This document shows positions 9,570 through 39,151 of a DNA stretch of 64,000 nucleotides, in pieces. Source of the stretch: Microbacterium sp. BK668. Its GTDB lineage: Bacteria > Actinomycetota > Actinomycetes > Actinomycetales > Microbacteriaceae. The first letter of the stretch is position 1, and each line of letters starts with the position of its first letter. Position numbers and translations under genes: made by a program. The stretch is taken from assembly GCF_004362195.1 (NCBI RefSeq), contig NZ_SNWG01000001.1, positions 2,852,001 to 2,916,000 on the forward strand. Direction: 5' to 3'. Below the pieces are notes generated by a model. It was not told the origin of the DNA and did no database searches. It worked only from the letters and a program-made list of their open reading frames with translations.

Positions 9570-10877
9570 ATGGCCGTCGCCGTCTCCATCGAGCCCGCTG
9601 CTCTCGCAGCGGTCCCGGGCGAGCCCGTCGAAGCGGTGGTGACGGTCCGCAACGACAGCCAGATCGTCGAGCAGTACGCCCTGCAGGCGATGGGTCCGGG
9701 CGGCGAGTTCACCACGCTCGTTCCCGACCACGTCAGCGTCTATCCCGAACGCACGGAGACGGTCACCGTCCGAGTGACGGTGCCGCGCTCGCCCGCCGTG
9801 CCGGCCGGCCGCCTCGACGTCGCCATCCGCGTCGTCCCGACATCGGCCGCGCCGACCGAGGACGAGCCGCTCGTCGACCGCACGACGGTCGCCGAGGTCG
9901 TCGAGCTGGCCGTGACCGTCGAGCCGTTCACGGCCGTTGCGGCCGAGCTCGTGCCACGGGTGTCGCGGTCGAGGGGCCGCAAGCGCGTGCGCCTGGCCGT
10001 GGACAACAACGGGAACGACGCGATCGCCGTGTCGCTGCTCAGCGCCGGGACCGAGCGGCTCTCCGTCGTGCCGCGCGATCCGGACCTGCTCATCGACGCC
10101 GGTCACGCCCAGTTCGTGCGCGTGACGCTCGTCCCGCGCCGGCGCATCTGGCGCGGTCAGGCGGCGAGCCATCCCTACTCGATCACCGTCACGCCCAGCT
10201 CCGGCGAGCCGGTCGTCGCCGACGGCACGCATATGCAGGAGCCGGTGTTCCCGCCGTGGTTCTGGAAGGCGCTCCTCGCGCTCGCCGCGCTGATCGCCCT
10301 TCTGATCCTCCTGTGGAACCTGCTCCTCAAGCCCACCGTCGAGCAGACGGCACGCGACGCGGTCGCCGAACCGCTCGCGAGCGCGCAGCAGCAGGCGGCG
10401 GAGGCAGAGGAAGCCGCAGCCGGCGCGCAGCAGACGGCACAGGAGGCGAAGGATGCGGCGCAGAGCGGCTCGGGCGAACCGCCACCGCCACCGCCGCCCG
10501 CGTCCACCACCGTCGACAGCGCGATCGCCGTGACCCTCACCGATCAGCCCGGCGGCGCTGTCGCGACGCGCGACATCGGCCCGGCCGTCCCGGACGGTGC
10601 AGTGTTCCAGATCACCGACCTGGTCTTCAACAACCCGCAGGGCGACGTTGCGACGGTCCAGCTCGCCTACGACGACACGGTGCTGCTGAACCTCAGCGCG
10701 GAGAACTACCGAGACCTCGACCTCCACTTCGTGACCCCCATCCAGATCCCGGCCGGTCAGACCCTGGAGGTGCGGATGAACTGCGTGCAGGTCGGCAAGC
10801 CGGTCGGCCGGACGCCCGACCGATGCCTCGCGACGGTGCTCGTCACCGGGGCCACGGTCACGCAGCCTGCAGGGTGA
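9570..10877 (+). CDS. eCIS-associated single-pass membrane protein with Ig-like N-terminal region
   Basis: A 435-residue protein of four parts. Residues 1-220 are two beta-sandwich-like repeats (VSIEPAALAAVPGEPVEAVVTVRN, a COG1470/NEW3-like pattern). One transmembrane helix lies at about 229-250 (WFWKALLALAALIALLILLW). An Ala/Gln/Glu coiled coil (about 260-295) precedes a PPPPPPP hinge and a C-terminal beta-rich domain with two Cys. It starts the rightward eCIS pair and is followed by the PAAR gene with 4 nt between. Actinobacterial CIS clusters carry a conserved membrane protein (CisA in Streptomyces) needed for particle function; this could be its counterpart by architecture, but I could not align them. 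Role inferred. Confidence 0.75.
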   Translation: MAVAVSIEPAALAAVPGEPVEAVVTVRNDSQIVEQYALQAMGPGGEFTTLVPDHVSVYPERTETVTVRVTVPRSPAVPAGRLDVAIRVVPTSAAPTEDEPLVDRTTVAEVVELAVTVEPFTAVAAELVPRVSRSRGRKRVRLAVDNNGNDAIAVSLLSAGTERLSVVPRDPDLLIDAGHAQFVRVTLVPRRRIWRGQAASHPYSITVTPSSGEPVVADGTHMQEPVFPPWFWKALLALAALIALLILLWNLLLKPTVEQTARDAVAEPLASAQQQAAEAEEAAAGAQQTAQEAKDAAQSGSGEPPPPPPPASTTVDSAIAVTLTDQPGGAVATRDIGPAVPDGAVFQITDLVFNNPQGDVATVQLAYDDTVLLNLSAENYRDLDLHFVTPIQIPAGQTLEVRMNCVQVGKPVGRTPDRCLATVLVTGATVTQPAG

Positions 10878-10881
10878 CGCC

Positions 10882-11199
10882 GTGCCCACCGGACCCGCTC
10901 TCCGCGCCGGCGACTCCGCGCTCTGCCCCCTGTTCGACGGACCGAAGCCGCACGGCGGCGGCGTCATCACTCCGGCGGCCGCGGTGCCGACGGTGCTCAT
11001 CGGCGGGATGCCGGCGGCGGTGGCGAATGCGATGCCGGGAGGCATCGTCTGCGTCTCGCCGGCGCCCAACGGCATCGCCCAGGGAAGCATGACCGTGCTC
11101 ATCGGCGGGTTCCCCGCGGCGCGGGTCGGCGACCAGTCGATGCACGGAGCGCCGATCGTCCCGGGCCCCGGGTGCCCCACCGTCATCATCGGCGGTTGA
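10882..11199 (+). CDS. PAAR-domain spike tip protein
   Basis: A 105-residue protein made of the repeating PAAR pattern (GDSALCPLFDGP, PTVLIGGMPAAV, VLIGGFPAARVGDQSMHG, GPGCPTVIIGG). PAAR proteins form a sharp metal-capped cone on the VgrG/gp5 spike of contractile systems. Cys and His residues suited to metal binding are present. The start is GTG, 4 nt after the membrane-protein stop. It is encoded opposite to the spike and baseplate genes although its product must bind the spike encoded at 14860-16668. Confidence 0.88.
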   Translation: MPTGPALRAGDSALCPLFDGPKPHGGGVITPAAAVPTVLIGGMPAAVANAMPGGIVCVSPAPNGIAQGSMTVLIGGFPAARVGDQSMHGAPIVPGPGCPTVIIGG

Positions 11200-11232
11200 C
11201 GCAGCGCCGCTCGCGCGGCCGGTGCGCCCGAT

Positions 11233-11925
11233 TCAGGGCGACTGCGACGAGAACACGAAGCCGACGATCGACGTGATGAATCCGATCACCACGTCCCGGT
11301 TGAGCCAGGCGACGACGAGCAGGCCGATCAGCACCGCGAGGACCAGCACAGCCGTGAACGGGAACCGCGTGCTTCGTCCTTTCGGCCGCGACCCGGCAGC
11401 CGGCTGCGCGGACGCCGGGGCGGCGACCGGCGCCGTGAGCTGCGCTGCGCATCGGCGGCAGAACCGCCGCTCGGGACGGTTCCCCGCTCCGCACGTCGGG
11501 CAGATGACATCGCCGGGGGCGGGCGGCGCCTCGACCGGGACGGCCGGCACGGCGGCGCGCGGACGCGGCGGAGCCGCAGCCGTCGGCTTCCGCAGAGCCG
11601 GGACGTCGGCGGGCGGGGCCGCCGGGGGCGTGCCCGGCGAAGGAGGGGCCGTGCGGGCTGTCGCGTCGGCGCCGCCGCCGGGCGGCATCGGAGCGGCCTT
11701 CGACGCGGCCGGGGAAGCGGGCATCGGGGCTGCGGCATCCCGTGTCGGCTCCCCTGCGTCCGTGTCCGGCCCCGGCTGGGCGGGCCGCGCCGCCGCGTCG
11801 TCCGGCGGCTCGGCCGCCGCAGGCTCCCACGCGAGATACGCGCCGCAGTTGCCGCAGAACTGCTCCCCCTGGAGATTCCGCCCGCCGCACTCGAGGCAGA
11901 CGACGTACGGGGTCGTGTCGGTCAT
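11233..11925 (-). CDS. eCIS-associated double zinc-ribbon membrane protein
   Basis: A 230-residue protein. The N-terminal zinc ribbon has Cys10, Cys13, Cys24 and Cys27; a Pro/Ala-rich linker of about 110 residues follows; a second ribbon (ICPTCG...FCRRC) lies near residues 140-162; and a hydrophobic helix near 188-212 is followed by a second weakly hydrophobic stretch. It is the last gene of the leftward structural operon, overlapping the tail-protein gene by 4 nt (ATGA). The function is unknown. Zinc-ribbon proteins recur in actinobacterial eCIS loci, so it may tether particles or their assembly site to the membrane. Confidence 0.7.
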   Translation of the reverse strand: MTDTTPYVVCLECGGRNLQGEQFCGNCGAYLAWEPAAAEPPDDAAARPAQPGPDTDAGEPTRDAAAPMPASPAASKAAPMPPGGGADATARTAPPSPGTPPAAPPADVPALRKPTAAAPPRPRAAVPAVPVEAPPAPGDVICPTCGAGNRPERRFCRRCAAQLTAPVAAPASAQPAAGSRPKGRSTRFPFTAVLVLAVLIGLLVVAWLNRDVVIGFITSIVGFVFSSQSP

Positions 11926-12485
11926 GTTCCCTCCTCGGCAGGGGGCGGTTCGAGCATCCAGGGCACGTGCGCGGGGACGACCGACCGCAGCACGCGCTCG
12001 ATCCGCCGTCTCACTTCGGGGTCGTCCACTCCCGTCGCGACGACAGTGACGAGCACGTCGTCGCTTCCCGGCACCTCTCCGCCCGGCTGCCCGGACCAGG
12101 CGACGCCGCCGTTGTCGCTGACCGTGACCTCGGCGTCCGGTCCCGCGGCCAGACGGACGGCCTCACGGATGCCGCCGAGCGTGCCGGCCCCGCGGTGAAG
12201 GGCGACGGCGCGCGCGACGATGTCCCGCCGCTGGTCGAGCGTCCATCCGCCGTCGGGTGCGACATCCACCCATCCGCCGAGCCAGTCCAGGAAGTCGGCC
12301 GGTGCGAGACGCGGATCGACGTAGGCGGCGAGATTGTCCAGGGTTGAGATCGTGGGCGCGATCGACGCGTCGAACGCCTGGAGGAAACGTGGCAGGAAGT
12401 CGCCGTCCGCGGCGTCCTGAAAGACGCCGGGCAGACGTTCGAGGAACGGAGACGGGCTGGCCAGCCCGGGGACGAGGCCGCGCAT
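11922..12485 (-). CDS. Phage tail protein I-like baseplate component
   Basis: A 187-residue protein resembling the P2 gpI/TIGR02242-type tail protein: it begins with FLERLPGVFQ, continues with DFLPRFLQAFD and FLDWLGGWVD, then RRDIVARAVALHRGAGTLGGIREAVRLA. In contractile tails this piece works with gpJ to form the baseplate wedge (Afp12-like position). ATG 12485 lies one base after the gpJ-like stop codon, so a start there is preferred over an upstream in-frame codon at 12512. Confidence 0.82.
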   Translation of the reverse strand: MRGLVPGLASPSPFLERLPGVFQDAADGDFLPRFLQAFDASIAPTISTLDNLAAYVDPRLAPADFLDWLGGWVDVAPDGGWTLDQRRDIVARAVALHRGAGTLGGIREAVRLAAGPDAEVTVSDNGGVAWSGQPGGEVPGSDDVLVTVVATGVDDPEVRRRIERVLRSVVPAHVPWMLEPPPAEEGT

Positions 12486-12486
12486 G

Positions 12487-14439
12487 TCAGACCCCCGTGA
12501 CGACCCGGACACTGTGCCGGTAGGAGTAGACGAGCGCGTTGGAATCGAGGTCGATGCGCAGGACCGGCTCGCCCGCCCGCTTGCCCGTGACCGGGTCGGC
12601 CTCCCACAGCTTGAGCTCGTCGACGAGCTCGACGCCGGGGACCGACTGCAGCACCGCGTACACCTCGCCGGCGAGGACGGGGCGCCCGAAGGGCCACCCG
12701 GTGCCGTCGATGCCGCCGACCACGGGATCGAAGTGCCGGTACAGGGCCGCCAGCGACCTCTTCTCGAGGATCTCCGGCACCGTCCCGGGCCGCGCGACGA
12801 TGCGCGCGACGATCGTCACGCCGCGGTAGAACGGCGGCTCGACGATGACCCGCGCCCCGACCGTCCGTCGTTCGCCGATCTCCTCCGCGACACCCGCGAG
12901 GAGATCCGCGTGGGGCTCGAGGTCAGCGAAGTCGACGTGACCGTCCGCTCCGGGGGCCGCGTTGGGAACGACGAGGAGCCGCACGGCGCCGTCCGCGGCC
13001 GTTGCGGGCACGCACCGCACGCGCGCGATCCCGGGACGGGCCGCTTTCGCGAGCTGCTCGTAGTCCTGCGCGGTCACCGCCCGATCGCGGGTGCGCACCG
13101 CGAGCGGGCCGCGCCGCTTGGCCTCCTCCAGCGTCTCGCCGTCGATGCCGCCGAGCGCCGCCGAGAGGTTCTCGACCGATCGGACGTACGGGACGGTGGT
13201 CCGAAGGACCGTGATCGAGCCCGCACCCACGTTGCCTCGGCGGCCACCACCCACGCGGTATCGCGGGATGCGCAGCGGAGCGCCCGCCGGCGGCACGGCG
13301 CCATACGGGGTGAGCCCGCCGTCGCGCTCACGGACGGCGGGCGGGAAGGCCAGCTCGCCCAGAGCACGATCGACGGTGAAGATCCGGTCGTCGCCCGTGT
13401 GTCCGGCGAAGGAGTCGGCCTCGTGCCACTGCTCCCAGCCCGAGCCGCCGGCGACCTCGACCACGAGCGGCTCGCCGTCGGCGACGACGGGAGCCTGCGA
13501 CAGGGCGAACACCTGCCCCGGCACGCCTTCGCTGAGGCCCAGGACCTCCCCGAGGACGGCTTCCGCGTGGGTCGCGTCCACCGCTCCGCCGACGATGGAT
13601 GCCGCGGCCCGGTGCACCAGGGGCGAGGAGGTGTAGGCGGGCTGACGCTCGTGGACGGGCTCGGTGACGATGCACCGGATCCAGCCGGCGCGCACTCCCC
13701 CCACGACCGAGACGACGTGCTCGGCGGGCAGCAGCACCTCGACGTCGCCGTCCTGGTTGAACCCGCCCGTGCCGTCGGAGACGACGCGGCAGTTCCGCCA
13801 GGCGCGGCCGGTCCACGCCTGCCACTGCCACGGCGGGTCGGTCGGGTCGACGCCGACACCCCGCACGCTGCACTGGAGGCTGACGGCGACGAGGCACCGC
13901 GGTGCGGCGTCGTCCAGCCCGAAAAGCACGGCATCGCCGGGAGCGGGGTCCGACTGGAACGCTTCGAACGTCCCCTCGCCGGGAAGCGCGTCGTCGGCGT
14001 GGACCACCCTCACCTCGACGGGCTCGCCGCGGCCGATGTGCGTCAGTCTGCGGGGCGGCATCGAGAGCTCGTCGTCCGTCGCGAAGACGATCGGCTCCTC
14101 GCCCTCGGAGCGCCGGGTCGCCACCTCCGCGGCCGCCGGCACCACCACCGGGTCGGGCCGCGCCGCGGAGAGCCGGAAGAGCACCTCGGCGCGGGCAGGC
14201 GCCGGCGGGTGGAGGGTCACGCCGAGGAGGTCGAGGAACGCGATGTACAGCCGGTCGGGCACGCGGTTCAGCCGGTAGTGCAGCTCGTCGACCATGAAGG
14301 CGAAGGCCTCGATGAGCGTGACGCCCGGGTCCGAGACGTTGTGGTCGCTCCACTCCCGGCATCGGGCGGCGACGAGCCGCTTGGCGTCGTCGACGAGCTG
14401 CTGGAACCTCCGGTCATCGAGATCGGGCGCGGGGAGCAT
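12487..14439 (-). CDS. Baseplate J-like wedge protein
   Basis: A 650-residue protein of the baseplate-assembly J/gp6 type (TIGR02243-like, Afp11 position). The N-terminus DRRFQQLVDDAKRLV...HNVSDPGVTLIEAFAFMVDELHYRLNRVPD is the classic start of this family; TVPYVRSVENLSAALGGIDGET and RAVTAQDYEQLA mark the central J domain; the C-terminal third matches FYRGVTIVARIVARPG. It forms the wedge ring around the spike. The start overlaps the gp25 stop (TGATG), indicating translational coupling. Longer than phage J proteins, as usual for eCIS. Confidence 0.9.
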   Translation of the reverse strand: MLPAPDLDDRRFQQLVDDAKRLVAARCREWSDHNVSDPGVTLIEAFAFMVDELHYRLNRVPDRLYIAFLDLLGVTLHPPAPARAEVLFRLSAARPDPVVVPAAAEVATRRSEGEEPIVFATDDELSMPPRRLTHIGRGEPVEVRVVHADDALPGEGTFEAFQSDPAPGDAVLFGLDDAAPRCLVAVSLQCSVRGVGVDPTDPPWQWQAWTGRAWRNCRVVSDGTGGFNQDGDVEVLLPAEHVVSVVGGVRAGWIRCIVTEPVHERQPAYTSSPLVHRAAASIVGGAVDATHAEAVLGEVLGLSEGVPGQVFALSQAPVVADGEPLVVEVAGGSGWEQWHEADSFAGHTGDDRIFTVDRALGELAFPPAVRERDGGLTPYGAVPPAGAPLRIPRYRVGGGRRGNVGAGSITVLRTTVPYVRSVENLSAALGGIDGETLEEAKRRGPLAVRTRDRAVTAQDYEQLAKAARPGIARVRCVPATAADGAVRLLVVPNAAPGADGHVDFADLEPHADLLAGVAEEIGERRTVGARVIVEPPFYRGVTIVARIVARPGTVPEILEKRSLAALYRHFDPVVGGIDGTGWPFGRPVLAGEVYAVLQSVPGVELVDELKLWEADPVTGKRAGEPVLRIDLDSNALVYSYRHSVRVVTGV

Positions 14440-14846
14440 CACTCGCCTCCTTCCTGTCGCGGGATGACGTAGAACGGGAAGACGAGGTTGCGCGGATCGT
14501 TGTCGCCGCGGATCCGGTACCGGATGTCGATGAGGAGGCGTCCCTCCTCGGCACCGTCGAAGTCGACCAGCACGTCGTCGAGATCGATGCGGGGCTCCCA
14601 GAAGCGCAGCGACGTCCTCACCGCCTCGCCGATCGCCCCCGCCGTCGAGGCGTCCGCCGGGGCGAAGACGTAGTCGTGGACGGCGCAGCCGAACTCCGGG
14701 CGCATCGGCCGCTCCCCCGGCGCGGTGGCGAGGATGAGTCGGATGCTGTCCTCGATCTCGCGGTCGTCGCGAGTGAGCAGGATCCGGCCGCTGCGGTCGG
14801 TCTCGACGGGGAACGCCCATCCCCTGCCCACGAACTCCTTCGACAT
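14439..14846 (-). CDS. gp25-like baseplate wedge protein
   Basis: A 135-residue GPW/gp25 family protein (Afp9-like). It has the GWAFPVETD start, the GERPMRPEFGC segment and the hallmark EPR motif (RFWEPRID) at about residues 81-86, which nucleates sheath polymerisation in contractile systems. It lies between the spike and wedge genes in one operon, 13 nt after the spike stop. Confidence 0.93.
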   Translation of the reverse strand: MSKEFVGRGWAFPVETDRSGRILLTRDDREIEDSIRLILATAPGERPMRPEFGCAVHDYVFAPADASTAGAIGEAVRTSLRFWEPRIDLDDVLVDFDGAEEGRLLIDIRYRIRGDNDPRNLVFPFYVIPRQEGGE

Positions 14847-14859
14847 GTCGGTCCGCTCC

Positions 14860-16668
14860 TCAGTTGATCTTCACGATCGCGCCCTTGACGGTCACGGCGG
14901 CCCCCGCCGAGAGCTCCGCCTGCGCGTCCGCCTTGACCGCCACCTGCGGAGCGGAGACCTCCACCTTGGCGGCGCCCTTGAGCTTCACCTGGGGCGCCTC
15001 GAGTTCGAGCGAGTCCTTCGCGGAGAGGGCGATGGTGGATGCCGAGACGACGACCTTGCCGGAGTTCGTCGTGATCGAGACATCCGTCTTCGCCGTCACC
15101 GACACCGGTCCCTCCGACAGGATCTCCAGTCCCTTCTCACCGTCCTGGCGCAGGGTCACGCGCTGCGCGCCCTTGTTGGTGGTGAGCTGCACCGTCTCCG
15201 ACGATCCGTCCTCGACGAACTCGACGCGCATGCCCGTGCGCGACACGAGCGCGCGCCGGAGCACGCCCTTCGAGTCGACGTACTCCTTCCAGCCGCCGTC
15301 GGGCAGGTCCTTGCCGTTGAAGAGGCCGCCGAGCACGAAGGGACGGTCGAAGAAGCCGTGCTCGAAGGAGACGAGCACCTCGTCCCCCACCTCCGGGAGC
15401 ACGACGTTCCCGCGCTCGGGGCCTGCGCCGACGTGCACGGTGCGGGCCCAGCCGCTCACGTAGTCGTCGGAGGCGAACGGGAACTTGAGCTTCACGCGGC
15501 CCTGGTCCTCGGGGTCGAGGTTGTCGGTGACGACGGCGGAGGTGACGCCGGAGATCCGCGGCTCGTGCAGCGCGACGCCCGCTCCGGCGACGCCGAAGAG
15601 CGAGCGATCCGAGACGTTCGCCACGACGGCGGTGGTGGAGTATCCGGCGCTCGCCGAGAAGTCGTGCACGGTCTCGCTCACGGTGTAGCGCCCGTCGAAC
15701 GGCTTGCCGAATCCGCTCAGGTTGACGGCGACCCCGCACCGGATGTCGGGATTTCCCGTGACCTGTGCCTCGACTTCGGCGAATCCGCCGGCGAGGCGGT
15801 CGGCGAGCGAGGCCGCCAGCTTGTCCTGGGACGCGGCGCGCCCCTCGCCCCACACGTCCGCGAACTCACGGCTCCCCACCTTCTTCGCGATGCCGGCCGG
15901 GGTGAGGTCGGGCAGTTCGGCGCTGCGGGTCTTGGCGTCGGCCTTGGAGACGACGACGTCCTTCGTCGCGGCATCCCACCCCCGCACCGAGACGTTCGCG
16001 ACCTGCTCGGCGGCCGTGACGACCGCCTTCACATACTGGGCGTTCGCGCCGTGCTCGATGACGACGGGGTTCTCGCGGGCGTTGGTGCCCGTCGGGGCAT
16101 CGCGAGCCGGGGTCGGCGGCCCGAAGTCGAGGCGCTTCCCGGTGACGGTGAAGGTCGCTCCGGCCAGGCGCGCGAGCCGCGCGAGGAAGGTCCAGTCGCT
16201 CACGTTGTCCTGCGCGACATGAGGCAGGACGCCGGCCGGCGCCTCGACTCGACCGACGGTCAGCCCCGCGCCCTGGGCGACCTTCCGGACGATGTCCGGG
16301 ATCGAGCACTCGACGAAGGCCGCGACGCGCGTGCCGCGCATGAGCCGCGCCGCACCGTCGAGCCCGCGCACGCGCGTGTGCAGTGCGCCTCCGAAGTCCT
16401 CCCGCTCGAGCGCGGTCACCTCCCCTTCGAACAGGACCGGCGAGCCGCCGGGACCGTTCTGGGAGACCTTCAGCGAGATGGCGGCCGCGATCGGGAAGAG
16501 GGCCGCCACCTTGGCGTGCTCATCGGTGAACTCCAGCTCGAAGGCGTCGGGCAGCCCCACCCCGTCCGTCACGCGCCCGCGCACGAGGAGCGCCGCGATG
16601 TCGGCGGGAAGCTCGTTGCCGTCGACCTGGACGACGAGCAGGCTCGTGTAGGTGTCAAGCGCGGGCAT
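14860..16668 (-). CDS. VgrG-like spike protein (gp27/gp5 fusion)
   Basis: A 602-residue trimeric spike protein. The first ~380 residues are the gp27-like hub (LVVQVDGNELPADIAALLVRG, then DWTFLARLARLAGATF). An OB-fold follows near residues 385-490 (VVTDNLDPEDQGRVKLKFPF, GWAR, EVGDEVLVSFEHGFFDRPFVLGGLFNG). The rest, to 602, is a beta-helical needle of short V/K/A-rich repeats. It corresponds to Afp8 and receives the PAAR tip. GGAGG precedes the ATG, and the first 14 bases overlap the 3' end of the LysM gene. No extra effector domain is fused at the C-terminus. Confidence 0.92.
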   Translation of the reverse strand: MPALDTYTSLLVVQVDGNELPADIAALLVRGRVTDGVGLPDAFELEFTDEHAKVAALFPIAAAISLKVSQNGPGGSPVLFEGEVTALEREDFGGALHTRVRGLDGAARLMRGTRVAAFVECSIPDIVRKVAQGAGLTVGRVEAPAGVLPHVAQDNVSDWTFLARLARLAGATFTVTGKRLDFGPPTPARDAPTGTNARENPVVIEHGANAQYVKAVVTAAEQVANVSVRGWDAATKDVVVSKADAKTRSAELPDLTPAGIAKKVGSREFADVWGEGRAASQDKLAASLADRLAGGFAEVEAQVTGNPDIRCGVAVNLSGFGKPFDGRYTVSETVHDFSASAGYSTTAVVANVSDRSLFGVAGAGVALHEPRISGVTSAVVTDNLDPEDQGRVKLKFPFASDDYVSGWARTVHVGAGPERGNVVLPEVGDEVLVSFEHGFFDRPFVLGGLFNGKDLPDGGWKEYVDSKGVLRRALVSRTGMRVEFVEDGSSETVQLTTNKGAQRVTLRQDGEKGLEILSEGPVSVTAKTDVSITTNSGKVVVSASTIALSAKDSLELEAPQVKLKGAAKVEVSAPQVAVKADAQAELSAGAAVTVKGAIVKIN

Positions 16669-17416
16669 GAGCCACCTCCCGCCGGGCGATCCCGCGCGCC
16701 CGTGCGTCGTCCAGTTCCTCGGCGGTGGGAAGGAAGATCGTCCGCCCCGGCCGTACCCGCATGGGGTCGTCGATGCCGTTGACGTCGGCGAGCGGGCGCC
16801 ACAGCGCCGCGTTCCCGTACTCCCGGTACGCGATGACGGCGAGGCTGTCCCCCTCGCGCATCGTGTGGACGGCTCGGGGCTGGAGTCCGCCCGAGGTCGG
16901 ATTCTGCTTGCCCTTCTCGGAGGGAAGCTCCTCGAGCGACACGGTGCACACCGCACGCAGCGGGCGGCCGTCCGAGCCGAAGAGCGTGTACTTCGCCGCG
17001 ACCGACTTGACGTAGCCGAGGAAGCTGCTGAGCGGGCCCCACGCGAACTTGACCCACGGCGGCGAGGGGCGCTTCTGTCCGATCGAGGCGGGCGTCGGCA
17101 CGACCGTCTCGAACAGCGCCTCGACGTCCTTCACGACACTCGACCCGGGCGAGCGCGTCGCGTCGAAGAACATCTCGAGGGTGAGTTTCTGCGGCTCGGG
17201 CGTCGTGAAGTTCGCCGGCGGCGCCGACCCCGCCTTCTTCTGGTTCTGCGACTCCCACTTCGCCGACTTGGTGACGGTCAGCTCCTTCGGGTTGAAGTGG
17301 AACGGGATGCTGCCGCGCGGCCCGCCGGGCTTGCCCGGCGACGGACCGGGCTCGAAGAGATCGAGCCTCGCGTGGACGAGCTTGGCGGAATTGCTGGAGG
17401 TCTGTGTGAGCTCCAT
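16655..17416 (-). CDS. LysM-containing baseplate hub protein
   Basis: A 253-residue protein (Afp7-like). The N-terminal part has FHFNPKELTVTKSAKWE and LTLEMFFDAT, the usual start of contractile-tail LysM proteins. A LysM domain lies at about residues 185-232 (HTMREGDSLAVIAYREYGNA...WRPLADVNGI). In contractile tails it joins tube to hub rather than acting on cell wall. It begins 3 nt after the tube-2 stop and overlaps the spike gene by 14 nt. Confidence 0.88.
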   Translation of the reverse strand: MELTQTSSNSAKLVHARLDLFEPGPSPGKPGGPRGSIPFHFNPKELTVTKSAKWESQNQKKAGSAPPANFTTPEPQKLTLEMFFDATRSPGSSVVKDVEALFETVVPTPASIGQKRPSPPWVKFAWGPLSSFLGYVKSVAAKYTLFGSDGRPLRAVCTVSLEELPSEKGKQNPTSGGLQPRAVHTMREGDSLAVIAYREYGNAALWRPLADVNGIDDPMRVRPGRTIFLPTAEELDDARARGIARREVAHARA

Positions 17417-17419: not shown

Positions 17420-17857
17420 TCACCTCTTCACCTGGAAGCCGTGGTGGGCGAGCTCGAGGGTCTCGACCGCGACCTTGGAGGAGTCCGTGTTGAGCGACGG
17501 TCCCGTCCACCGCACCGGCACGACGTCGGTCAGCTCCCAATGCAGGACGGCCTTGCCCGCGCTGTTCTTCGCGGTGATGACGCCGTTGACCCGTTTGGCG
17601 GAGTCGATGAAGCCGGTGATCCACTGCACCGTCTTCTCGGCGTCGGCGCTGAGCGGGCGCGTGAGCTTGACGTTCGGATACTTCAGCCGGGTGGGGAACT
17701 GCCACGGGTAGGCGTTGTTGCCGCCCTCCTCGCGCGTCTCCAGCACCACCTCGATGCCCAGCCCCTCGCACGTCGCGAACGCGCCGAGGATCGCCTCGTC
17801 GAGCTTCACCTCGTACGAGACGGTGAGAGCCCAGTCCTTGGATTCGGTGAGTGGCAT
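17420..17857 (-). CDS. Tail tube protein 2 (gp19-like)
   Basis: A 145-residue T4 gp19-type tube protein: begins with a Phe/Tyr beta hairpin, has FATCEGLGIEVVLETREEGGNN and PNVKLTRPLSADAEKT, and ends in VETLELAHHGFQV. By position next to LysM and spike genes it is the baseplate-proximal tube initiator (Afp5-like), distinct from the bulk tube protein at 21041-21487. Shine-Dalgarno sequence GGGAGCG precedes the ATG. Confidence 0.9.
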   Translation of the reverse strand: MPLTESKDWALTVSYEVKLDEAILGAFATCEGLGIEVVLETREEGGNNAYPWQFPTRLKYPNVKLTRPLSADAEKTVQWITGFIDSAKRVNGVITAKNSAGKAVLHWELTDVVPVRWTGPSLNTDSSKVAVETLELAHHGFQVKR

Positions 17858-31102: not shown

Positions 31103-31728
31103 GTCGGCTCACCCTCCGGCACCCGCTGCCCGCGGTCCTCGGTCACCCCAGCCTCCAGCAGATCGCTGAACTCGGCCTGGACCCCGGCCGTGACAGGCGG
31201 ACCCGCCTCGAAGACGACGCCGGTCGCCATGGGAACCGTCACGACGACGTCGAGAGACGGCTTGAGCTCTCCGCCGAGCGAGGACCAGACGTCGGCGAAG
31301 GCGCGGTCCTCGGGCGGTGGCAGCGCGATCGTCACGGCGACGGGTCGCCCCATCTCGGCGAGCGACCCCGTCATAAGCTCCGCAGGGAGGGCGTCGAACG
31401 GCAGCAGCGCGCGGAGGAGGCCGTCGAGCAGCCGGTGCTCGTCCTCCGGCCGCTGCGTCCAGGCCGTGACGAGGTAGGACAGCTTGAAGAAGCGCGGCCC
31501 GGGCGCCCGGGTGACGACGATGCCGTTCTCGTTCCGCGTCTCGACGAATCCCCGCTCCCGCCGCCGCAGGTCCTCCCGGATGTCGTAGAGGTAGAGGTTG
31601 ACGGTCGGCGCGTTCCGCCGCGCGGCCCAGTCCTTCGTCGGCGCATCGAAGACGACGTCCACGTCCTTCGGGATGCCGGGTATCTCGCGCACGAGCTCGC
31701 CGAGCGCCTGGTCCACTTCTGCGATCAT
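31099..31728 (-). CDS. DUF4255 tail terminator (Pvc16/Afp16-like)
   Basis: A 209-residue DUF4255 protein: LGELVREIPGIPKDVDVVFDAPTKDWAARR, then NAPTVNLYLYDIREDLRRRE and FFKLSYLVTAWTQRPEDEHRLLDGLLRALL. In Afp/PVC it caps the distal end of tube and sheath and ends elongation. It is coupled by ATGA to the secreted giant protein upstream and by overlap to the ATPase downstream. Confidence 0.92.
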   Translation of the reverse strand: MIAEVDQALGELVREIPGIPKDVDVVFDAPTKDWAARRNAPTVNLYLYDIREDLRRRERGFVETRNENGIVVTRAPGPRFFKLSYLVTAWTQRPEDEHRLLDGLLRALLPFDALPAELMTGSLAEMGRPVAVTIALPPPEDRAFADVWSSLGGELKPSLDVVVTVPMATGVVFEAGPPVTAGVQAEFSDLLEAGVTEDRGQRVPEGEPT

Positions 31729-34700
31729 CCGCCCCTCCCGACCAGTTCGTCCGCCACCGTGCTTCGCGGCACGAGAAGTGTGGGAAGCGCGGGGTGGAAG
31801 TCGCCGAACCTGCCGTCTGTGCTGCTGATCGTGAAGTCGCGGAGCCCCAGCAGCGCGCGGCGGACGACGAGGATGCGCTGGCTGTCGAAGGTGACGCCTG
31901 CGGGAAGGACGAGGGTGGAAGTCGGCACGGGCAGCGGAGCGCTACCCCAGCTCATCGAGATGCTGGCGCCCTCGGGGAGGCTCTCGACATAGACCGTCAC
32001 CACCTCGCCCGGGCGGGCGACGCGCGGCACGATGGTCACCTTCGGCTGAAGCACGGTGATGTCGACGAAGTCGGACCCGATCCACTCGATCGGCAGCTCG
32101 GCGATGACGGGATCGCTGGGCGGGGGCGGAACCGGGGGCGCATCGGGCGGCTGCACCGTGATCGTCACGGGAGCGCTGAGCGAGTCGTCTCGGCCGTCGT
32201 TCGCGCGGAACGTGAAGGAGTCGGGCCCGCTGTATCCCGCGGCCGGGGTGTAGATGAGGTTCGGCGGGGTCCCGGTGAGCACGCCGTGCGCGGGTTGGCC
32301 GACGATCGCGTAGGTGAGGTCGTCGCCGTCCGCGTCGGTCGCCGACAGTGCGAGCCCCACCGCGGTGCCGTGTGCGGTGATCACGGACTGGCCGACGGCG
32401 ACAGGCGGTCGGTTCGACCGGAGGCTTCCCGCGGCGAGGAAGACCTGGCTGTCCCACTGTTCCGCGACCGTGTCGGCGATCGCGATCTTCACCGTGTTCC
32501 TCTCGTCGGGCGTGACTTCCGCCACGCACTGGAGCACGGTGGTGAGCCCGTCCGCCTGCAGATCGAGAGGAGAAGGAGTGGGACTGCTGTCGGAAAGGTC
32601 GGGGGTGTTGTCCCGGTACAGCTCCGGCCTCTGCGCGTCGGTTCCGAGCGGCGAGCCGCCGTTGATCGTCTCGACCGAGACCGGGTCGGACTCATCGTCG
32701 GGGGTGAGCGCGCAATTGACCCCGTTCACGAAGATCGCGAAGACACCGTGGGCCTCGAGGTCGGCGTACTCGCTGTACTCCTCACTCGCGAAGACGAAGT
32801 CGAGGAGGAGCTGCGACGACGCCGGGACGACATCGAAGGCGAGAACGGACGCATCCCGCGTGTCCCAGTCGAATTCAGCCTCGAGATCGCTGTCCCCGGG
32901 CGCCTCGAGGTAGCCGGTGGTCGTCTCACTGCGGTTGGGACCGGGGGCATCGGAGACATAGCCGGAGCTCAGGATCACGCCCTCGGGGAATCCGACCACG
33001 TCGAAGCCCGAGAACAGACCGGCTCCGGCGTCACTGCCCGTGTAGTCGACGTTGCCCACGGTCACCCCCGGTCCGACGAGCGCGTCGACGAGATCCTCGG
33101 ACGTGACCGCGGAGAGGTCCCTCACCTCTTGCGCGGGCCCCGCGAACTGCACGAAGGGCGGGTTCAGCGGGTCGATGGAGAGGGCGGTCGACGGGGGCGC
33201 GGAGTTCAGGACCGGCGGGTCCGACGGCGAGGGCGGGTCGGTCGGCGTAGGGGAATCCGAGGGTGTCGGCGTGGGCGGATCCGAGGGTGTCGGCGTGGGC
33301 GCGGGGAGAGGCAGCGGCGTGGGAGCCTCCGCGGTGTACGACCACGAGAAGCCGCCGACGCGGATCCGGCCGGTGCTCGGGAATGCACTCGGGTCCGCAT
33401 TCGCGGGCTCGACCGCAGGCATCGCGAAGGTGAGCGTCACCTGCTTGGTCGCGTTGACAGCATCCAAGCCGGTCACCCGGCACACGCGTTCCGCGACCAT
33501 CGCGTCGCAGCCCGCGATGGCGATCAGGGTCGTGAACGTCGGCCACTCCAGAGCGAGATCCACCGTCAGGCCGGGGAGCGCGCCGGGGATCGATCCGGTG
33601 TGCGTCACCGTCGCCGTCGCCGTGACGGGCTGGCCGCCCGTCCACCCGGTGTCGCGGTCGATCACGAGGTCGACGCCGATCCTCGGGTCCAGCACCGTGA
33701 AGGTCTCGGCATCCGACCCGATCCACCCGGTCGGATAGACGGTGCAGTCGTCCGGGGAGCCCGAACACAGCACCGCCCCGGATGCGGCGATCTCTCCCAC
33801 TCCGCCCGCCGACGACGGCATGTCGAACCACACCCGCACGCTTCGCGCGTCACCGACCTGCTCGAATCGCGGCAGGAAGCAGATGTCGCCGTCCCGGTAC
33901 TCGCACCCGGATATCTCGGGAGGGTCGACGACATCGAGGAAGGAGGGCCACTGGATGCGGATGCCGACGGTGTCGACGTTGTCGTCGACCGCGGCCAGAT
34001 GGTCGAAGGTCACCCGGATCTCGGCCTGCAGCCGAAGCCCCCGGACCGTGCTGATGGACCGATCGAGCACGACGTCGACCGGGAACACCCCGGCGTCGAG
34101 GATGTAGGGGTAGTCGCTGGGGAGGATCCACGTCGCGGGCAGATCGACGGCTGCCCCGTCGTCGAACATCCGAAGCGCCGATCCCGTCAGAACCACATCG
34201 CCGCTGACGGATTCGGCGATGGACGCAGGCGTGACGAACTCCAGCGTGAATTCGACGCTGTCCCCCGGCGAGTCCAGGTCCGACACCCTGCAGACACCCC
34301 CGGTGGGCGCGGGAACGGGGTCCGGGACGAAGTCCGCGCATCCCTCGGTCGGACCGCCTGCAGGCGTGAAGAAGGCGGGCCAGTCGATGCGCACCGTCGC
34401 CTCGGCGCCGGGCAGCACGCGATCGCTGGTTTCCCGGTGCCACACCCGGAAGGTCGCGACGACCGGCGGTCCCCCGGGGGCTCCGGTCGACGAGTCCAGC
34501 TGGACCGATGTGAGGATCGGCTCCTCGAACACGGTGACCAGCATCGATGATCCGGCGACCCACTCGCTCGGCATCGGCACATCGGCCAGCGCTGCCGCGT
34601 GGATGCTGTCGGAGGCGAGAGCCGACGCCGACCCCGCGGGCGGGCTCTTCGCAGATGCGAGGACGAACTCCGGGGCGGACGGAACGACGGGGGCGAAATT

Positions 34701-35753
34701 CGGCACGGCTGCGCCCCGGACCTCGACGCGACCGACCGCGCCGCGCACCTCTATGCGCCCCGAGCCCGGGCGCGCCGCTCGCATGTCGAAGGCAAGTCCG
34801 ACGGTGTGGGTGGCTCCGACGAGGACCAGACCCGAGACGGTGCAGTGCGCACGCCGCTCCGCCGCGATCACGGAACAGCCGGGATCGCTGACGCTCGGGA
34901 CCCCGAGGAAGTCGGGCCAGAGGATGTCGAACGCCACCTCGGCGGAGGTGATGTCGCGGTCCGGGTCTTCGGGATCCGGCGTACGAGCGACGGACACGTC
35001 GATGTCGATGGGCGGGCCCGTCGGCCACCCCTCCGCGTCTCCCGTGAGTCCCGTCGCGTAAGCCGGCAGACCGAGCACGAAAGGACGGGCGTCCGAGCCG
35101 AGAGCGTCCGGTGGCCCTAGCGACACGAACTCGAGACCGCCCTCGTCGTCGGTGACCCCCCGTGTCACCGTCGCCCGCACAGTTCCGGTGAACGGGTTGG
35201 TCGAGAAGGCCCAGTCGGAGGAGAGCGGTATCCGCACCACCGCGGTCGACCCGGGCGCCCAGAGGCCGGCGATGAAGCACTCGTCGCCGGTCGAGAAGTC
35301 CCGAGCGAACTGCGGTGGAGGCGGATCGGACGGGTCCTCGGGCGGATCCGGCGGAAGGTTCATCGGCACCGTCGTACCCTGCGCCACCCAGAAGGCGCAC
35401 TCACCTGCGGGTGGGGAGGGATAGTAGGCAGGCGCGCTGCCACGAAGGACACCGTCCCAGTCCAGCCGCACGCCCACGCGGAAGTCGTCGCCCGCCGAGC
35501 CGCCCGTTGCGTCGCGCGTGACGGTGATCTCCGCGAACGCCGACCCGCGCAGGGGAATCTGGGTGGCGACGGCTCCGGTCGCGTCGACCAACCTCATATG
35601 AACCTGGTAGGGAAGGGTGGACTGATGGGAGGCGGGCACGACACCGGCGGGCAGGTCGCTGCCGGTTGCCGTGGCGGGGGCGGCGACGACCGCACCGCCG
35701 AGCACGAGGCTCACGGCGGCGAGCGCTGCGGCGAGGCGTCGTCGGAGTGTCAC
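31725..35753 (-). CDS. Secreted choice-of-anchor-L repeat protein, eCIS linked
   Basis: A 1342-residue protein beginning at GTG 35753 with a signal peptide (RRRLAAALAAVSLVLGGAVVA, cleavage near residue 32) and AGGA five bases upstream. Residues 50-800 hold about five repeats of ~160 residues with a WP motif, a Cys pair and closing vtltFxMP strands (DUF11-like). A Pro/Thr/Ser linker (about 810-848) leads to a choice-of-anchor-L domain (about 880-1110), a cadherin-like Ig repeat (about 1115-1200) and a final beta domain. No LPXTG or membrane anchor is visible. The stop overlaps the tail-terminator start, so a Sec-secreted surface protein is coupled to cytoplasmic particle genes, which is odd. 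It could be a receptor, adhesin or fibre. Confidence 0.8.
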   Translation of the reverse strand: MTLRRRLAAALAAVSLVLGGAVVAAPATATGSDLPAGVVPASHQSTLPYQVHMRLVDATGAVATQIPLRGSAFAEITVTRDATGGSAGDDFRVGVRLDWDGVLRGSAPAYYPSPPAGECAFWVAQGTTVPMNLPPDPPEDPSDPPPPQFARDFSTGDECFIAGLWAPGSTAVVRIPLSSDWAFSTNPFTGTVRATVTRGVTDDEGGLEFVSLGPPDALGSDARPFVLGLPAYATGLTGDAEGWPTGPPIDIDVSVARTPDPEDPDRDITSAEVAFDILWPDFLGVPSVSDPGCSVIAAERRAHCTVSGLVLVGATHTVGLAFDMRAARPGSGRIEVRGAVGRVEVRGAAVPNFAPVVPSAPEFVLASAKSPPAGSASALASDSIHAAALADVPMPSEWVAGSSMLVTVFEEPILTSVQLDSSTGAPGGPPVVATFRVWHRETSDRVLPGAEATVRIDWPAFFTPAGGPTEGCADFVPDPVPAPTGGVCRVSDLDSPGDSVEFTLEFVTPASIAESVSGDVVLTGSALRMFDDGAAVDLPATWILPSDYPYILDAGVFPVDVVLDRSISTVRGLRLQAEIRVTFDHLAAVDDNVDTVGIRIQWPSFLDVVDPPEISGCEYRDGDICFLPRFEQVGDARSVRVWFDMPSSAGGVGEIAASGAVLCSGSPDDCTVYPTGWIGSDAETFTVLDPRIGVDLVIDRDTGWTGGQPVTATATVTHTGSIPGALPGLTVDLALEWPTFTTLIAIAGCDAMVAERVCRVTGLDAVNATKQVTLTFAMPAVEPANADPSAFPSTGRIRVGGFSWSYTAEAPTPLPLPAPTPTPSDPPTPTPSDSPTPTDPPSPSDPPVLNSAPPSTALSIDPLNPPFVQFAGPAQEVRDLSAVTSEDLVDALVGPGVTVGNVDYTGSDAGAGLFSGFDVVGFPEGVILSSGYVSDAPGPNRSETTTGYLEAPGDSDLEAEFDWDTRDASVLAFDVVPASSQLLLDFVFASEEYSEYADLEAHGVFAIFVNGVNCALTPDDESDPVSVETINGGSPLGTDAQRPELYRDNTPDLSDSSPTPSPLDLQADGLTTVLQCVAEVTPDERNTVKIAIADTVAEQWDSQVFLAAGSLRSNRPPVAVGQSVITAHGTAVGLALSATDADGDDLTYAIVGQPAHGVLTGTPPNLIYTPAAGYSGPDSFTFRANDGRDDSLSAPVTITVQPPDAPPVPPPPSDPVIAELPIEWIGSDFVDITVLQPKVTIVPRVARPGEVVTVYVESLPEGASISMSWGSAPLPVPTSTLVLPAGVTFDSQRILVVRRALLGLRDFTISSTDGRFGDFHPALPTLLVPRSTVADELVGRGG

Positions 35754-35861: not shown

Positions 35862-36485
35862 TCAGATGAGTCCTTCCCGCATCGCATATGCGACTGCGTG
35901 CGAGCGGTTGCGCAGCTGCAGCCGCGTCGTGATGTCGTGCAGGACGTTCTTCACCGTCCGCTCCGAGTACGACAGCTTCTGTGCGATCTCGGCCGTGTCC
36001 CATCCCTCCGCGACGAGCTTGAGCACTTCGACCTCGCGTGCGGCGAGCCCCGAGAAGGGGATGCCGCGCGGATCGAGCACCGTCCGCTGAAGGCGGCCCA
36101 CCTCGTCGAGCAGCCGACCGAGCAGATCCGGCGGCACGGTGCCCTCCCCCGCCGCCGCGGCGCAGATCGCGGCGACGAGCCGGTCCGGGCGCGCCTCGGA
36201 GCGCCGGACGAGGCCGACGACCCCGGTCTCCACGGCGCGGACGAGATCGCCGTCGCTCAGCTGCGTCGCGATGAGCACCGTTCGCGACTCGCCGTGGCGC
36301 TGCAGGAAGCGCAGCGTCGTCAGCGTCTCGTCATCCACGACGTCCGCTACGACCACCACCACCTCCGGCGTGATCTCCTCACCCGCACTGACGACGCGCA
36401 CCTCGGGGCGCGGTCGCAGCTGACTGACGATTCCGGCCTCTGAGATCGGGTCGCGCGCGTTGACGCGCACCGATGTTCGGCTCAT
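35862..36485 (-). CDS. LuxR/NarL-type regulator of the eCIS locus
   Basis: A 207-residue two-domain regulator: a receiver-like N-terminal half (VVVVVADVVDDETLTTL, TQLSDGDLVRAVETGVVGLV) and a C-terminal LuxR HTH (LAAREVEVLKLVAEGWDTAEIAQKL, SERTVKNVLHDI). The Asp in VVAD is a candidate phosphoacceptor, though the surrounding pocket is not typical. No histidine kinase is adjacent. It lies 108 nt before the secreted giant protein and is the likely local regulator. ATG 36485 was chosen because receiver homology starts there; longer in-frame sequence upstream is unlike the family. Confidence 0.83.
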   Translation of the reverse strand: MSRTSVRVNARDPISEAGIVSQLRPRPEVRVVSAGEEITPEVVVVVADVVDDETLTTLRFLQRHGESRTVLIATQLSDGDLVRAVETGVVGLVRRSEARPDRLVAAICAAAAGEGTVPPDLLGRLLDEVGRLQRTVLDPRGIPFSGLAAREVEVLKLVAEGWDTAEIAQKLSYSERTVKNVLHDITTRLQLRNRSHAVAYAMREGLI

Positions 36486-36589
36486 GGTGGTCTCACTTTC
36501 CCCATCCGACGAGACGAGCCCGCGCTCACCCCACCGGGACCCATGGCCTCCCCCCGCTGCCAGTGTGCCCACTGCTGCGCGGGTTTCCT

Positions 36590-36613
36590 CTACGTACCCG
36601 CGCGACTACGTAG
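36590..36613. promoter_or_regulatory. Inverted repeat CTACGTA / TACGTAG upstream of the LuxR regulator
   Basis: Seven-base arms CTACGTA and TACGTAG with a 10-base spacer, about 105 bp upstream of the LuxR-type regulator start and overlapping the last codons and stop of the large activator. The heptamer arms and placement suit a LuxR/NarL-class operator, but coding constraint on the same bases weakens this. Confidence 0.35.
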
Positions 36614-39151
36614 CTCGAGGGTGTCCTCCAGATGTGCGGCGAGGTCTGCCCGGCTGCGGATGCCGAGCTTGTGATACACGTTCGACAGATGCGTCTGCAC
36701 GGTCCGGACCGACAGCCCGGTGTCGGCCGCGATCTCGGCATCCGTCCGTCCGCCCGCGGCGCGCTGCGCGAGGTCCGACTCGCGTCCGGTCAGCATCGTC
36801 ACGGGAGCCGCCGGAACCACTGGGCTGTGCAGTGAGGGGCAGCGCCCGCGGAGGGTCGCCAGCAGCTCCGGATCGGCGCCGGCGGGAAGGGTGGCCGCCG
36901 CGCTCGCGACCTCGAGCGCGCGCCAGACGTAACCCCGGGCGGCGAGTTCGCCCGCGCACGCCGTGAGAGCCGCCGGATCCCGTTCCAGCCACGCGTGCGC
37001 CAGCTCCTGCGAGCGCCGGAGGGAGGCGACGGCAGGACCGCCGCGGATCCCGAGCAGTGCGCGGGCTGCGGCATCCGATCCGTACCGGACGGCTTGATCG
37101 AGCGCGTAACGCCCGCGGGTGACCTGACCGCGCGACACCGCCGCCGTCCCCGCCGCGAGCAGGCGCTCGGAGGCGCCCTCGACGTCGCCGCGCGCGGCGT
37201 CGAGCAGAGCCGAGGCCCGCGCGAGGTCGCTCTCGAACAGCCGCGACCTGCGGGAAGCGAGAGCGCGATCGCGGTGCTGCTGCGCCTCGTCGTGCCGGCC
37301 GGAGAGCACGAGCACCTCGATCAGGGTCGCCCTCGTCCAGGCTCGGAACGCCAGCGCCCACGTGCCGTCGACGACGACGGCGCAGACGGCGAACGGCAGC
37401 GCCACGGCCGGCGTCCCGCGTTCGAGGGCGATGCGTGCCAGCTGATGGGAGTGCTGCGCCCGCATGCCCTCGTCCTGAAGGGAGAGAGAGCGCTCGTACG
37501 ATGCGCGAGCGAGCGAGTGAGCTGCGTCGAGCGACTCCCGCACCTCGATCAGCGCCCATTCGTCGATGAGCCGCGCCGACTCGGCACCCTCGGGAAGGTC
37601 GTCCCCCGCGCGTGACACCAGCCGCGAGCGAAGCGCCCGGAGACCGTCGTAGTCCCGCATGCGTCCGGCGTGGACGAGCGCAGCACTGACGGTCAGCGCA
37701 GCGTGCGCGCGCGCGATCGTCGGGGCGTGCTCGTCGTGCACGACGGGGCGTCCGGCGCGGAGCGCACCGGGGATGTCGCCGAGCTGCAGGGCGGCGCTCG
37801 CGACGTGCGCCGCCGCGAGCGCACCCGACTCGGCATGCGGCGCGAGGAGCCCCATCGCGCGCTGCGGATCGTTCCCCGGGAACAGGAGCAGGAACGCGCG
37901 GACGATGTCACGCTGACGCCGAAGGTCGGCGGGCAGCTCGGCGTCGTCCAGTTCCGCCAGCAGCATCTCGGCATCCGCCGCTCGATGCTCATGGGCGAGC
38001 ATGGATGCCACGCCGAGTCTGTCCTCGACGGAGACCGCTCGAGCGATCGCGAGCTCGAGCAGGGCATCAGCCGCCGAAGCGGACAGCCGTTGAACCCGCC
38101 GGGCCGCCCGCAGGAGGTCGTGCGCCGGCACCCTCGCCCCCAGCTCGCAGCGCCATGTGAGCAGACGCGCGGCGAGCAGCGGATCCTCGGGGGGATGCGG
38201 ATGCGCATCGACGAGACGCTGCTCGAGATCCAGGCGGGTGCTGGTCGGCAGGTCCGCCACCAATGCCTCGGCGATCCACGGATGCCGCGGCTCGAGGACC
38301 GGGCTGTGCTCGTGCGGGACCACCGTGATGAGGCCCGCCACCTCCGCCTCCTCCATCGAGGCGGCGCTGGCCAGACCCCGCGCGACGGTCAGCGGCAGTC
38401 GCCGCGCCAGCGCGACCAGTCGGGCGATCCGCAGACCGCCTTGGGAGACGGGAGCGGAGGCGCCGACGCCGCCGCTGTCCGAAACGGGAGCAGAGCCGCC
38501 GAGGACGTAGGCCATGTCCGCCTCGTAGCCGATCCGACGGGCACGGGTCAGCCCGTCGAGGATCTGCTGCGCGTACAGGGGGACGCCGCTCGACCAGCGG
38601 GCGACGAGCGAGACCAGGCCCGGATCGGGCGTGGCGGCCAGACGCGCCCGTATCGTCTGCGCGAGCTCGTCCTCCCGCAGCGGACCGAGCGTCACCGGCG
38701 TACCGGTGTGATCGCGCATGATCGCCCGGACGGCCTCGTCCACGTCGCACCCCGCCTTGACCCCGAGCAGGAGGGGGACCTCCGCGCGCGCCAGCTGCAG
38801 GAGCAGCGCCGCCGAGGCGTCGTCGAGGTGGTGGGCCTCATCCACGATCACGAGCGGCTTGCTGCGCACGAGCGCAAGGCGCAGGCGTGTCGCCGCCTCG
38901 AAGGTGGTCTCGACGCGGTCGACGATGGGGAGGAAGACTCCGAGAGGCATCGTGGAGCCGGCCCGCGTCGCGACGAGCTCGTGCACGGGGCGCTGCGGCC
39001 GGACGCGTTCGGCCACCCGGCGAAGGAGCGCCGACACGCCGATGCCGGGCGACCCGACGACGACGCGGGAATGGCCGGCGACCGCCGACCGCGCGAGCTC
39101 CTCGAGCTCGGACCGTCGTCCGACGAAGGTGCGATGCGGTGACCGGGACAT
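36590..39151 (-). CDS. LAL-type LuxR transcriptional activator with AAA domain
   Basis: An 853-residue regulator with an N-terminal ATPase-like domain, a long helical TPR-like middle and a C-terminal LuxR HTH (LTGRESDLAQRAAGGRTDAEIAADTGLSVRTVQTHLSNVYHKLG). The P-loop reads GSPGIGVSAL: the usual Lys of GxxGxGK is Val, while Walker B VIVDEAHHLDD is intact, so ATP hydrolysis may be lost. ATG 39151 was chosen because GGAG lies 7 nt upstream; a codon at 39163 is also possible. It heads the second eCIS block and probably controls it. Confidence 0.85.
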   Translation of the reverse strand: MSRSPHRTFVGRRSELEELARSAVAGHSRVVVGSPGIGVSALLRRVAERVRPQRPVHELVATRAGSTMPLGVFLPIVDRVETTFEAATRLRLALVRSKPLVIVDEAHHLDDASAALLLQLARAEVPLLLGVKAGCDVDEAVRAIMRDHTGTPVTLGPLREDELAQTIRARLAATPDPGLVSLVARWSSGVPLYAQQILDGLTRARRIGYEADMAYVLGGSAPVSDSGGVGASAPVSQGGLRIARLVALARRLPLTVARGLASAASMEEAEVAGLITVVPHEHSPVLEPRHPWIAEALVADLPTSTRLDLEQRLVDAHPHPPEDPLLAARLLTWRCELGARVPAHDLLRAARRVQRLSASAADALLELAIARAVSVEDRLGVASMLAHEHRAADAEMLLAELDDAELPADLRRQRDIVRAFLLLFPGNDPQRAMGLLAPHAESGALAAAHVASAALQLGDIPGALRAGRPVVHDEHAPTIARAHAALTVSAALVHAGRMRDYDGLRALRSRLVSRAGDDLPEGAESARLIDEWALIEVRESLDAAHSLARASYERSLSLQDEGMRAQHSHQLARIALERGTPAVALPFAVCAVVVDGTWALAFRAWTRATLIEVLVLSGRHDEAQQHRDRALASRRSRLFESDLARASALLDAARGDVEGASERLLAAGTAAVSRGQVTRGRYALDQAVRYGSDAAARALLGIRGGPAVASLRRSQELAHAWLERDPAALTACAGELAARGYVWRALEVASAAATLPAGADPELLATLRGRCPSLHSPVVPAAPVTMLTGRESDLAQRAAGGRTDAEIAADTGLSVRTVQTHLSNVYHKLGIRSRADLAAHLEDTLELRSRAGT

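Follow-up and report, generated by a model that had tools for sequence, protein, structure and literature searches.

We analyzed a 64,000-nt stretch of DNA (the window) on contig NZ_SNWG01000001.1 of Microbacterium sp. BK668, the genome of which comprises 3.73 Mb in 7 contigs. A contractile injection system (CIS) locus forms one compact cluster at window positions 9570-39163 (genome C1:2861570 onward). This locus almost certainly encodes a complete CIS of a Streptomyces-like lineage. It also carries genes for a bitopic membrane protein and for a candidate exported protein, and it is reasonably probable that these two proteins function together. We infer that the pair spans the envelope and serves a cytoplasmic CIS as its dock or its trigger. 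The machine itself is of a known kind, and the membrane and export module appears to be undescribed within open-licence full texts; none of these (supplements outside the scope) paired contractile injection with choice-of-anchor, PD40, "hydrolytic protein", or COG1470.

Protein families were assigned with Pfam, NCBIfam, and, for eight locus proteins, PHROGs. Every part named in the preliminary description of the window was present at its place by Pfam or NCBIfam matches, and of the span given there, 9570..39151, the left end stood and the right end was corrected to 39163. On the reverse strand, the contractile sheath (21534..23090) matched PF04984 with 91.2 bits and PDB entry 8bky with 688 bits. 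Two gp19 tube proteins, encoded at 21041..21487 and, in the tube initiator position, at 17420..17857, gave Pfam scores of 98 and 99 bits. A hub protein (16655..17416) matched CIS_tube with 94 bits and LysM with 16.5 bits, the latter below the cut-off, and was followed by a VgrG-like spike (14860..16668; PF04717, 83 bits) and a gp25 wedge (14439..14846; Pfam, 92 bits). The baseplate J protein (12487..14442) matched TIGR02243 with 467 bits and PDB entry 9gtp with 686 bits, and the wedge protein Tail_P2_I (11922..12485) matched PF09684 with 57.5 bits and chain E of 9gtp. A Pvc16/DUF4255 cap, or terminator, is encoded at 31099..31728 (PF14065, 142.6 bits; PDB entry 9gts, 205 bits). For all nine structural proteins, namely two tubes, sheath, LysM hub, spike, gp25, J, I, and cap, the best PDB sequence match was found in the linked entries 9gtp, 9gtr, 9gts, 8bky, and 8bl4, which we take to be those of the Streptomyces coelicolor CIS. 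The same strand encodes an AAA+ ATPase with an N-terminal WHD (29054..31102; AAA, 80 bits), a small DUF6760 protein (20459..20614; PF20546, 41.6 bits), and a tail-assembly-chaperone-like protein (20611..21036; phrog_508, E 1.7e-4). The PAAR spike tip (10882..11199; PF05488, 65.5 bits) is encoded on the forward strand, 4 bp after the bitopic gene.

We next compared the locus with its relatives. A sheath match at E ≤ 0.001 was found in 16 of 198 genus genomes drawn from a larger group, and among these 198 a full-length sheath of at least 72% identity was limited to the host genome and three others. The nearest named sheath, at 91% identity, belongs to Microbacterium sp. SS28. The best 80 of 480 named sheath loci were kept, and all were actinobacterial (e.g., Agromyces, Leifsonia, Arthrobacter, Cellulomonas, Nocardioides, and Streptomyces); 49 named CIS genomes were searched with profiles, and 25 loci were compared separately. 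Synteny was common to the related loci that were compared. In the sheath tree, the window's locus grouped with SS28 among Microbacteriaceae, with Streptomyces farther away. When 20 genes, excluding a Pro-rich open reading frame (ORF) and an HNH gene, were compared with those of SS28, the nine structural genes showed pN/pS of 0.12-0.40, consistent with purifying selection; therefore, the locus is maintained. The cytoplasmic CIS of S. coelicolor (type IId; PMC12237407) likewise has nine structural proteins, a cap, an AAA protein, no recognised fibre, and a zinc-ribbon/transmembrane (TM) protein downstream of the baseplate. By contrast, in the window the exported-protein gene overlaps the cap gene, the PAAR and bitopic genes form a pair at the distal end, in the opposite orientation, and the CisA-like protein has no C-terminal outer domain. 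The preliminary description is supported in that the locus encodes a complete contractile particle akin to that of Streptomyces, along with regulators and an outward-facing protein that varies between lineages. In a congeneric genome (G110), two adjacent large sheath-like frames of 709 and 755 aa (C1:4011821-4016141) and a further sheath match elsewhere (C1:531591-532877) were also seen.

The bitopic protein (9570..10877, forward strand) is predicted to have two N-terminal immunoglobulin (Ig)-like domains, a TM segment at residues 235-253, a helical stalk, and a C-terminal beta domain. Its model had a mean pLDDT of 91.6 and a pTM of 0.56 and was confident by domain, with a long helix that includes the TM segment. 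No PDB sequence match was found at E ≤ 0.01, and among the matches listed in a fold search, coverage corresponded to the Ig part (residues 1-226). Relatives carry the source names "hydrolytic protein" or COG1470 family. A survey of 396 genomes of the order with the bitopic profile (E ≤ 1e-15) gave matches in 29 of the 31 that have a sheath at E ≤ 1e-100 and in 1 of the 365 that do not; in this single exception, the PAAR, bitopic, and LuxR genes lie within 4 kb of a contig end. Strong matches were obtained in 48 of the 49 named CIS genomes, the remaining one (G206) reaching 39.9 bits only. A homologue is also present in Streptomyces loci, and the available part of PMC12237407 contains neither of two guessed locus tags for it (SCO4256 and SCO4257). 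Other homologues bear the source names Chloroflexi, Limnocylindrales, and Dormibacteraeota (P0043, P0039, and P0048). According to the available part of PMC12998442, the Roseiflexus/Chloroflexota cytoplasmic CIS falls inside clade IId and has no close cisA homologues; the window likewise has no full CisA but belongs to another phylum. Two side observations concern this family: a Kocuria dechangensis contig carries two tandem bitopic genes (8591-11869), only one of which includes the C-terminal domain, and bitopic-type N-terminal parts are fused to ricin-type lectin domains in two proteins (P0054 and P0055), one of them source-named Kitasatospora.

The exported-protein candidate (31725..35753, reverse strand), the gene of which overlaps the cap gene by 4 bp, has a signal-peptide-like N-terminus, a repeat ectodomain, choice-of-anchor L, Big_9, and a conserved C-terminal domain of ~125 residues ending in RGG. 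An RG or RGG ending was found in nine aligned proteins, and several of 20 further ones end otherwise. A signal-peptide-like segment was present in the window's protein and in 19 of the 20 further proteins, the exception (G449) lying at a contig end; starts were picked for the most hydrophobic segment, which biases this count toward a signal-peptide-like result. Pfam analysis of the ectodomains of 13 relatives detected PD40 in 10, DUF11 in 9, and VWA in 2, with no match in 3. Across the same 396 genomes, strong matches to the C-terminal domain numbered 15 (56-163 bits), the next best being 38 bits; matches to this profile (A1) of at most 38 bits in 22 further genomes were counted as generic domains. 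Each strong match shared its contig with a sheath of 62% identity or more, at a distance of 3.1-10.3 kb, and none of the 15 genomes that have such a sheath lacked the domain. The exported protein was found in 30 of the 49 named CIS genomes. Its gene had a pN/pS of 0.69 relative to SS28, the highest of the 20 genes compared, which may reflect diversifying or relaxed selection.

We then examined how the two proteins are linked. In 51 genomes, of which the window's and G191 were scored by hand, the complete C-terminal domain of the bitopic protein and the exported protein were both present in 31 and both absent in 18; the bitopic domain occurred alone in 2 and the exported protein alone in none. 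The two bitopic-alone cases are a Kocuria genome with two tandem bitopic genes and a Cellulomonas contig end. Across these surveys, G614 and G440 count as contig-edge cases. On the sheath tree, five of seven supported independent contrasts agreed with this association, none opposed it, and two showed no difference (sign test, p 0.0625). The association between the exported protein and the CisA outer domain was weaker (both, 27; neither, 14; discordant, 6 and 4), with three to four of seven contrasts agreeing and none opposing. Furthermore, in an Agromyces/M. yannicii clade without the exported gene, the four long bitopic proteins examined are 674-682 aa. A profile of three of these long ectodomains matched the repeats of five of nine exported proteins with 54-108 bits, whereas the best of 450 shuffles reached 5.5 bits. 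No other protein of 12 loci exceeded 3 bits, save the long bitopic proteins themselves, and the fourth of these (G607) matched at 600 bits. This apparent fusion is the best evidence for joint action of the bitopic and exported proteins and points to an outside location of the bitopic C-terminal side. A C-out topology is assumed because a signal-like segment was found at the N-terminus of none of 52 homologues, because cysteines occur in the C-terminal part in 13 of 13 proteins, with none before the TM segment in 11 of 13, and because the ectodomains resemble repeats of proteins with export signals.

A CisA-like zinc-ribbon protein (11233..11925, reverse strand) is encoded directly downstream of the baseplate genes and has a low-complexity N-terminal part and a single TM segment near its C-terminus. 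Its relatives consist of zinc ribbons, a TM segment, and a further domain; the forms in the window and in SS28 end soon after the TM segment, and the C-terminal domain of the relatives is missing. The profile used for the CisA outer domain (A4) derives from relatives that occupy the CisA position and not from SCO4242, so the link to CisA is one of place, topology, and size rather than of alignment. A4 had no match in the host genome and matched with at least 86 bits in 33 of 51 genomes; the domain was not found in the other 18, some of them on fragmented contigs. In S. coelicolor, CisA is required for firing (PMC12237407, available part).

Several results weigh against a trigger built from the bitopic and exported proteins. 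Shared ancestry partly explains their co-variation. Four of the nine exported proteins, those of the propeller type, had no match to the long-bitopic profile, and in more distant CIS the bitopic match is limited to the Ig part. The class can do without the exported protein, which is absent from 19 of the 49 named CIS genomes. The C-out topology is contested by the positive-inside rule: K/R residues were more numerous on the C-terminal side of the TM segment in 41 of 52 bitopic homologues, fewer in 4, and equal in 7. In addition, since the CisA-like protein here has no outer domain, CisA-type firing may be changed or lost.

The preliminary description had called the system extracellular, and this is not supported: neither DUF6519 nor another recognised fibre gene is present in the locus, and the closest solved relative is reported to be cytoplasmic. 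The search for fibre genes in the locus, which found no DUF6519 or other fibre family, was by Pfam scans and did not include eBAP1-4 profiles. In the eBAP catalogue (PMC12923769, available part), DUF6519 (eBAP5) defines one actinobacterial fibre type, and fibreless loci are out of its scope. The fibre-type (eBAP5/DUF6519) CIS of that catalogue shares a contractile machine with the window locus, which differs in having no DUF6519 match; a candidate for this type lies elsewhere in the host genome. This second, different CIS (C1:434349-460000, ~434-460 kb) includes a divergent sheath, a tube, an AAA protein, a GPD-type hub, two J-type proteins, and a sub-cut-off CIS_tube match. The sole DUF6519 match of the host genome (C1:453094-453294) lies inside it, in the first 67 residues of a 989-aa protein (C1:453094-456063), with a score of 41.9 bits, above the cut-off but covering 67 of 593 profile positions. 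Thus, fibreless and fibre-type machines seem to coexist in the host genome. It is quite likely that the window's CIS works in a non-fibre, membrane-docked mode, and on balance it would be of the Streptomyces cytoplasmic kind (type IId-like, a label that rests on homology rather than on a rerun of the published clade scheme) rather than a fibre-bearing extracellular one. A truly extracellular CIS, with lysis-released particles and an unrecognised fibre or with the exported protein as a detached receptor-binding part, is unlikely. Fibres are encoded in many actinobacterial loci (PMC12923769, available part), and the ectodomain of the exported protein is variable, with the highest pN/pS. However, DUF6519 was not found in the locus, signal-peptide-like segments are present in the exported protein and nearly all of the further ones (a count favoured by the choice of starts), and the cluster's genes 3' of Tail_P2_I are limited to those for the CisA-like, PAAR, and bitopic proteins.

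The exported protein might instead be a common surface protein carried along in the operon without any connection to the CIS, as its PD40, DUF11, VWA, Big_9, and choice-of-anchor L domains are generic surface modules. We regard this as rather improbable: strong matches to its C-terminal domain occurred only near CIS sheaths (15 of 15), the Amycolatopsis exported gene lies at the other end of its locus yet beside the bitopic gene, and both the fusion and the co-variation connect it with the bitopic protein. Decay of the membrane module, with loss of the CisA outer domain and a partly nonfunctional locus, is less probable still. The outer domain is absent from both the host genome and SS28, and an HNH gene has probably been inserted; however, two related Microbacterium genomes retain the short CisA-like form (pN/pS, 0.46), the structural genes are under purifying selection, and every predicted gene of the locus is an open frame. 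The chance of a defective prophage or R-type tailocin is negligible, although all CIS descend from phage tails and the bitopic protein has weak sub-cut-off PHROGs matches (Rz-like spanin, E 0.0045; virion protein, E 0.06), since no capsid, terminase, portal, or integrase family scored above the Pfam cut-off in the scanned locus proteins, as the preliminary description had stated, Terminase_6N (the sole terminase family searched across the genome) had no match genome-wide, and DUF4157, AAA, Pvc16, and DUF6760 are all present.

The cargo of the machine is very likely of the Sle1/Sle2 type. A 1126-aa protein (24808..28188, reverse strand), identified by synteny as a Sle1-type effector candidate, has a variable C-terminal module from approximately residue 930. 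This large protein, helical as judged from sequence, had been read as tape-measure-like, and it fits better as an effector with the neighbouring DUF4157 (eCIS_core) protein (28204..28923, reverse strand; PF13699, 113.6 bits) as its Sle2-like partner. The order and place of the two proteins match the Sle1/Sle2 effector pair known from S. lividans (PMC13277306, available part), in which a small DUF4157 protein likewise stands beside a large protein with a variable C-terminus, upstream of the sheath. Unlike in S. lividans, an HNH gene separates the window's pair from the sheath; this is not so in SS28. The SS28 Sle1 protein aligned to residues 1-938 only and had no match to the window's C-terminal module. 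This module was also found in other Microbacteriaceae and in Pseudarthrobacter loci, and a database search with it returned four other proteins. Its five-row model was of low confidence (pLDDT 66.5, pTM 0.59), with no PDB match at E ≤ 0.001. A Pro-rich 858-aa ORF (17870..20446, reverse strand; start uncertain, taken from the ORF list) had no Pfam, PHROGs, or NCBIfam match, and its C-terminal segment is kept in relatives; a tape-measure role was considered for it. It contains nine [VILFM]QR motifs (0.24 expected), and the DUF4157 protein contains five (0.17 expected); with relatives included, the counts were 90 versus 2.6 in 10 Pro-rich proteins and 54 versus 2.1 in 11 DUF4157 proteins. The AAA (23 versus 4.1) and LuxR (16 versus 2.6) proteins also exceeded expectation, at one or two motifs per protein. 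The motif may be a docking motif for loading.

Two LuxR-type regulators (PF00196) are encoded on the reverse strand at the right end of the locus. The smaller (35862..36470), which is kept with such loci, is 96% identical to its SS28 counterpart, and the larger (36590..39163), with a weak N-terminal ATPase match, is 58% identical. In the Pfam scan, the LuxR protein gave sub-cut-off helix-turn-helix cross-matches to TerS_N and Terminase_5 (E 0.03-0.06). The DUF222-HNH gene between effector and sheath (23491..24753, forward strand; PF02720, 110 bits) interrupts the cluster, is not at the corresponding place in the closest relative SS28, and is probably an insertion outside the machine. A Georgenia locus contains a protein resembling its HNH part. 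Genes are tightly packed, with five 4-bp overlaps within the locus; gene starts came from a codon-usage caller, which shortened the Pro-rich ORF, and some other starts are doubtful. Nothing scored above the Rfam gathering score, and a tRNA search found none. The nearest scanned flanking genes encode an ABC ATPase, SURF1, and BioY.

By analogy with Streptomyces, particles would assemble in the cytoplasm with Sle1 inside the tube and then dock at the membrane. There, the Ig domains of the bitopic protein would receive the baseplate or the PAAR tip at the inner face; contact between the spike tip and the Ig domains is suggested because the PAAR gene adjoins the bitopic gene. The outer beta domain of the bitopic protein would hold the C-terminal domain of the exported protein, and the variable ectodomain of the latter would recognise an outside cue (a neighbour, a glycan, or envelope damage) and thereby license the particle to dock and fire. 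Through its C-terminal module, Sle1 might then act on the producing cell or, after lysis, on a neighbour. Such an outside-in trigger is put forward tentatively. More speculatively, many actinobacterial cytoplasmic CIS might be governed from outside by a dedicated relay of two CIS-specific proteins, in which an exported receptor, its ectodomain exchangeable, binds via a conserved C-terminal domain to the outer domain of a bitopic adaptor. In loci that have no receptor gene, the ectodomain (repeats or lectin) may be part of the adaptor itself, and the bitopic protein rather than CisA would be the general membrane adaptor.

These results bear on how a fibreless cytoplasmic CIS locates the membrane and on what makes it fire, and CisA is the factor described in the cited work. 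A second membrane protein, with strong matches in 48 of 49 CIS genomes, and its matching exported partner, found in 30 of 49, are direct targets for knockout. If the proposal is true, the bitopic-exported pair would account for the fast variation of the ectodomain.

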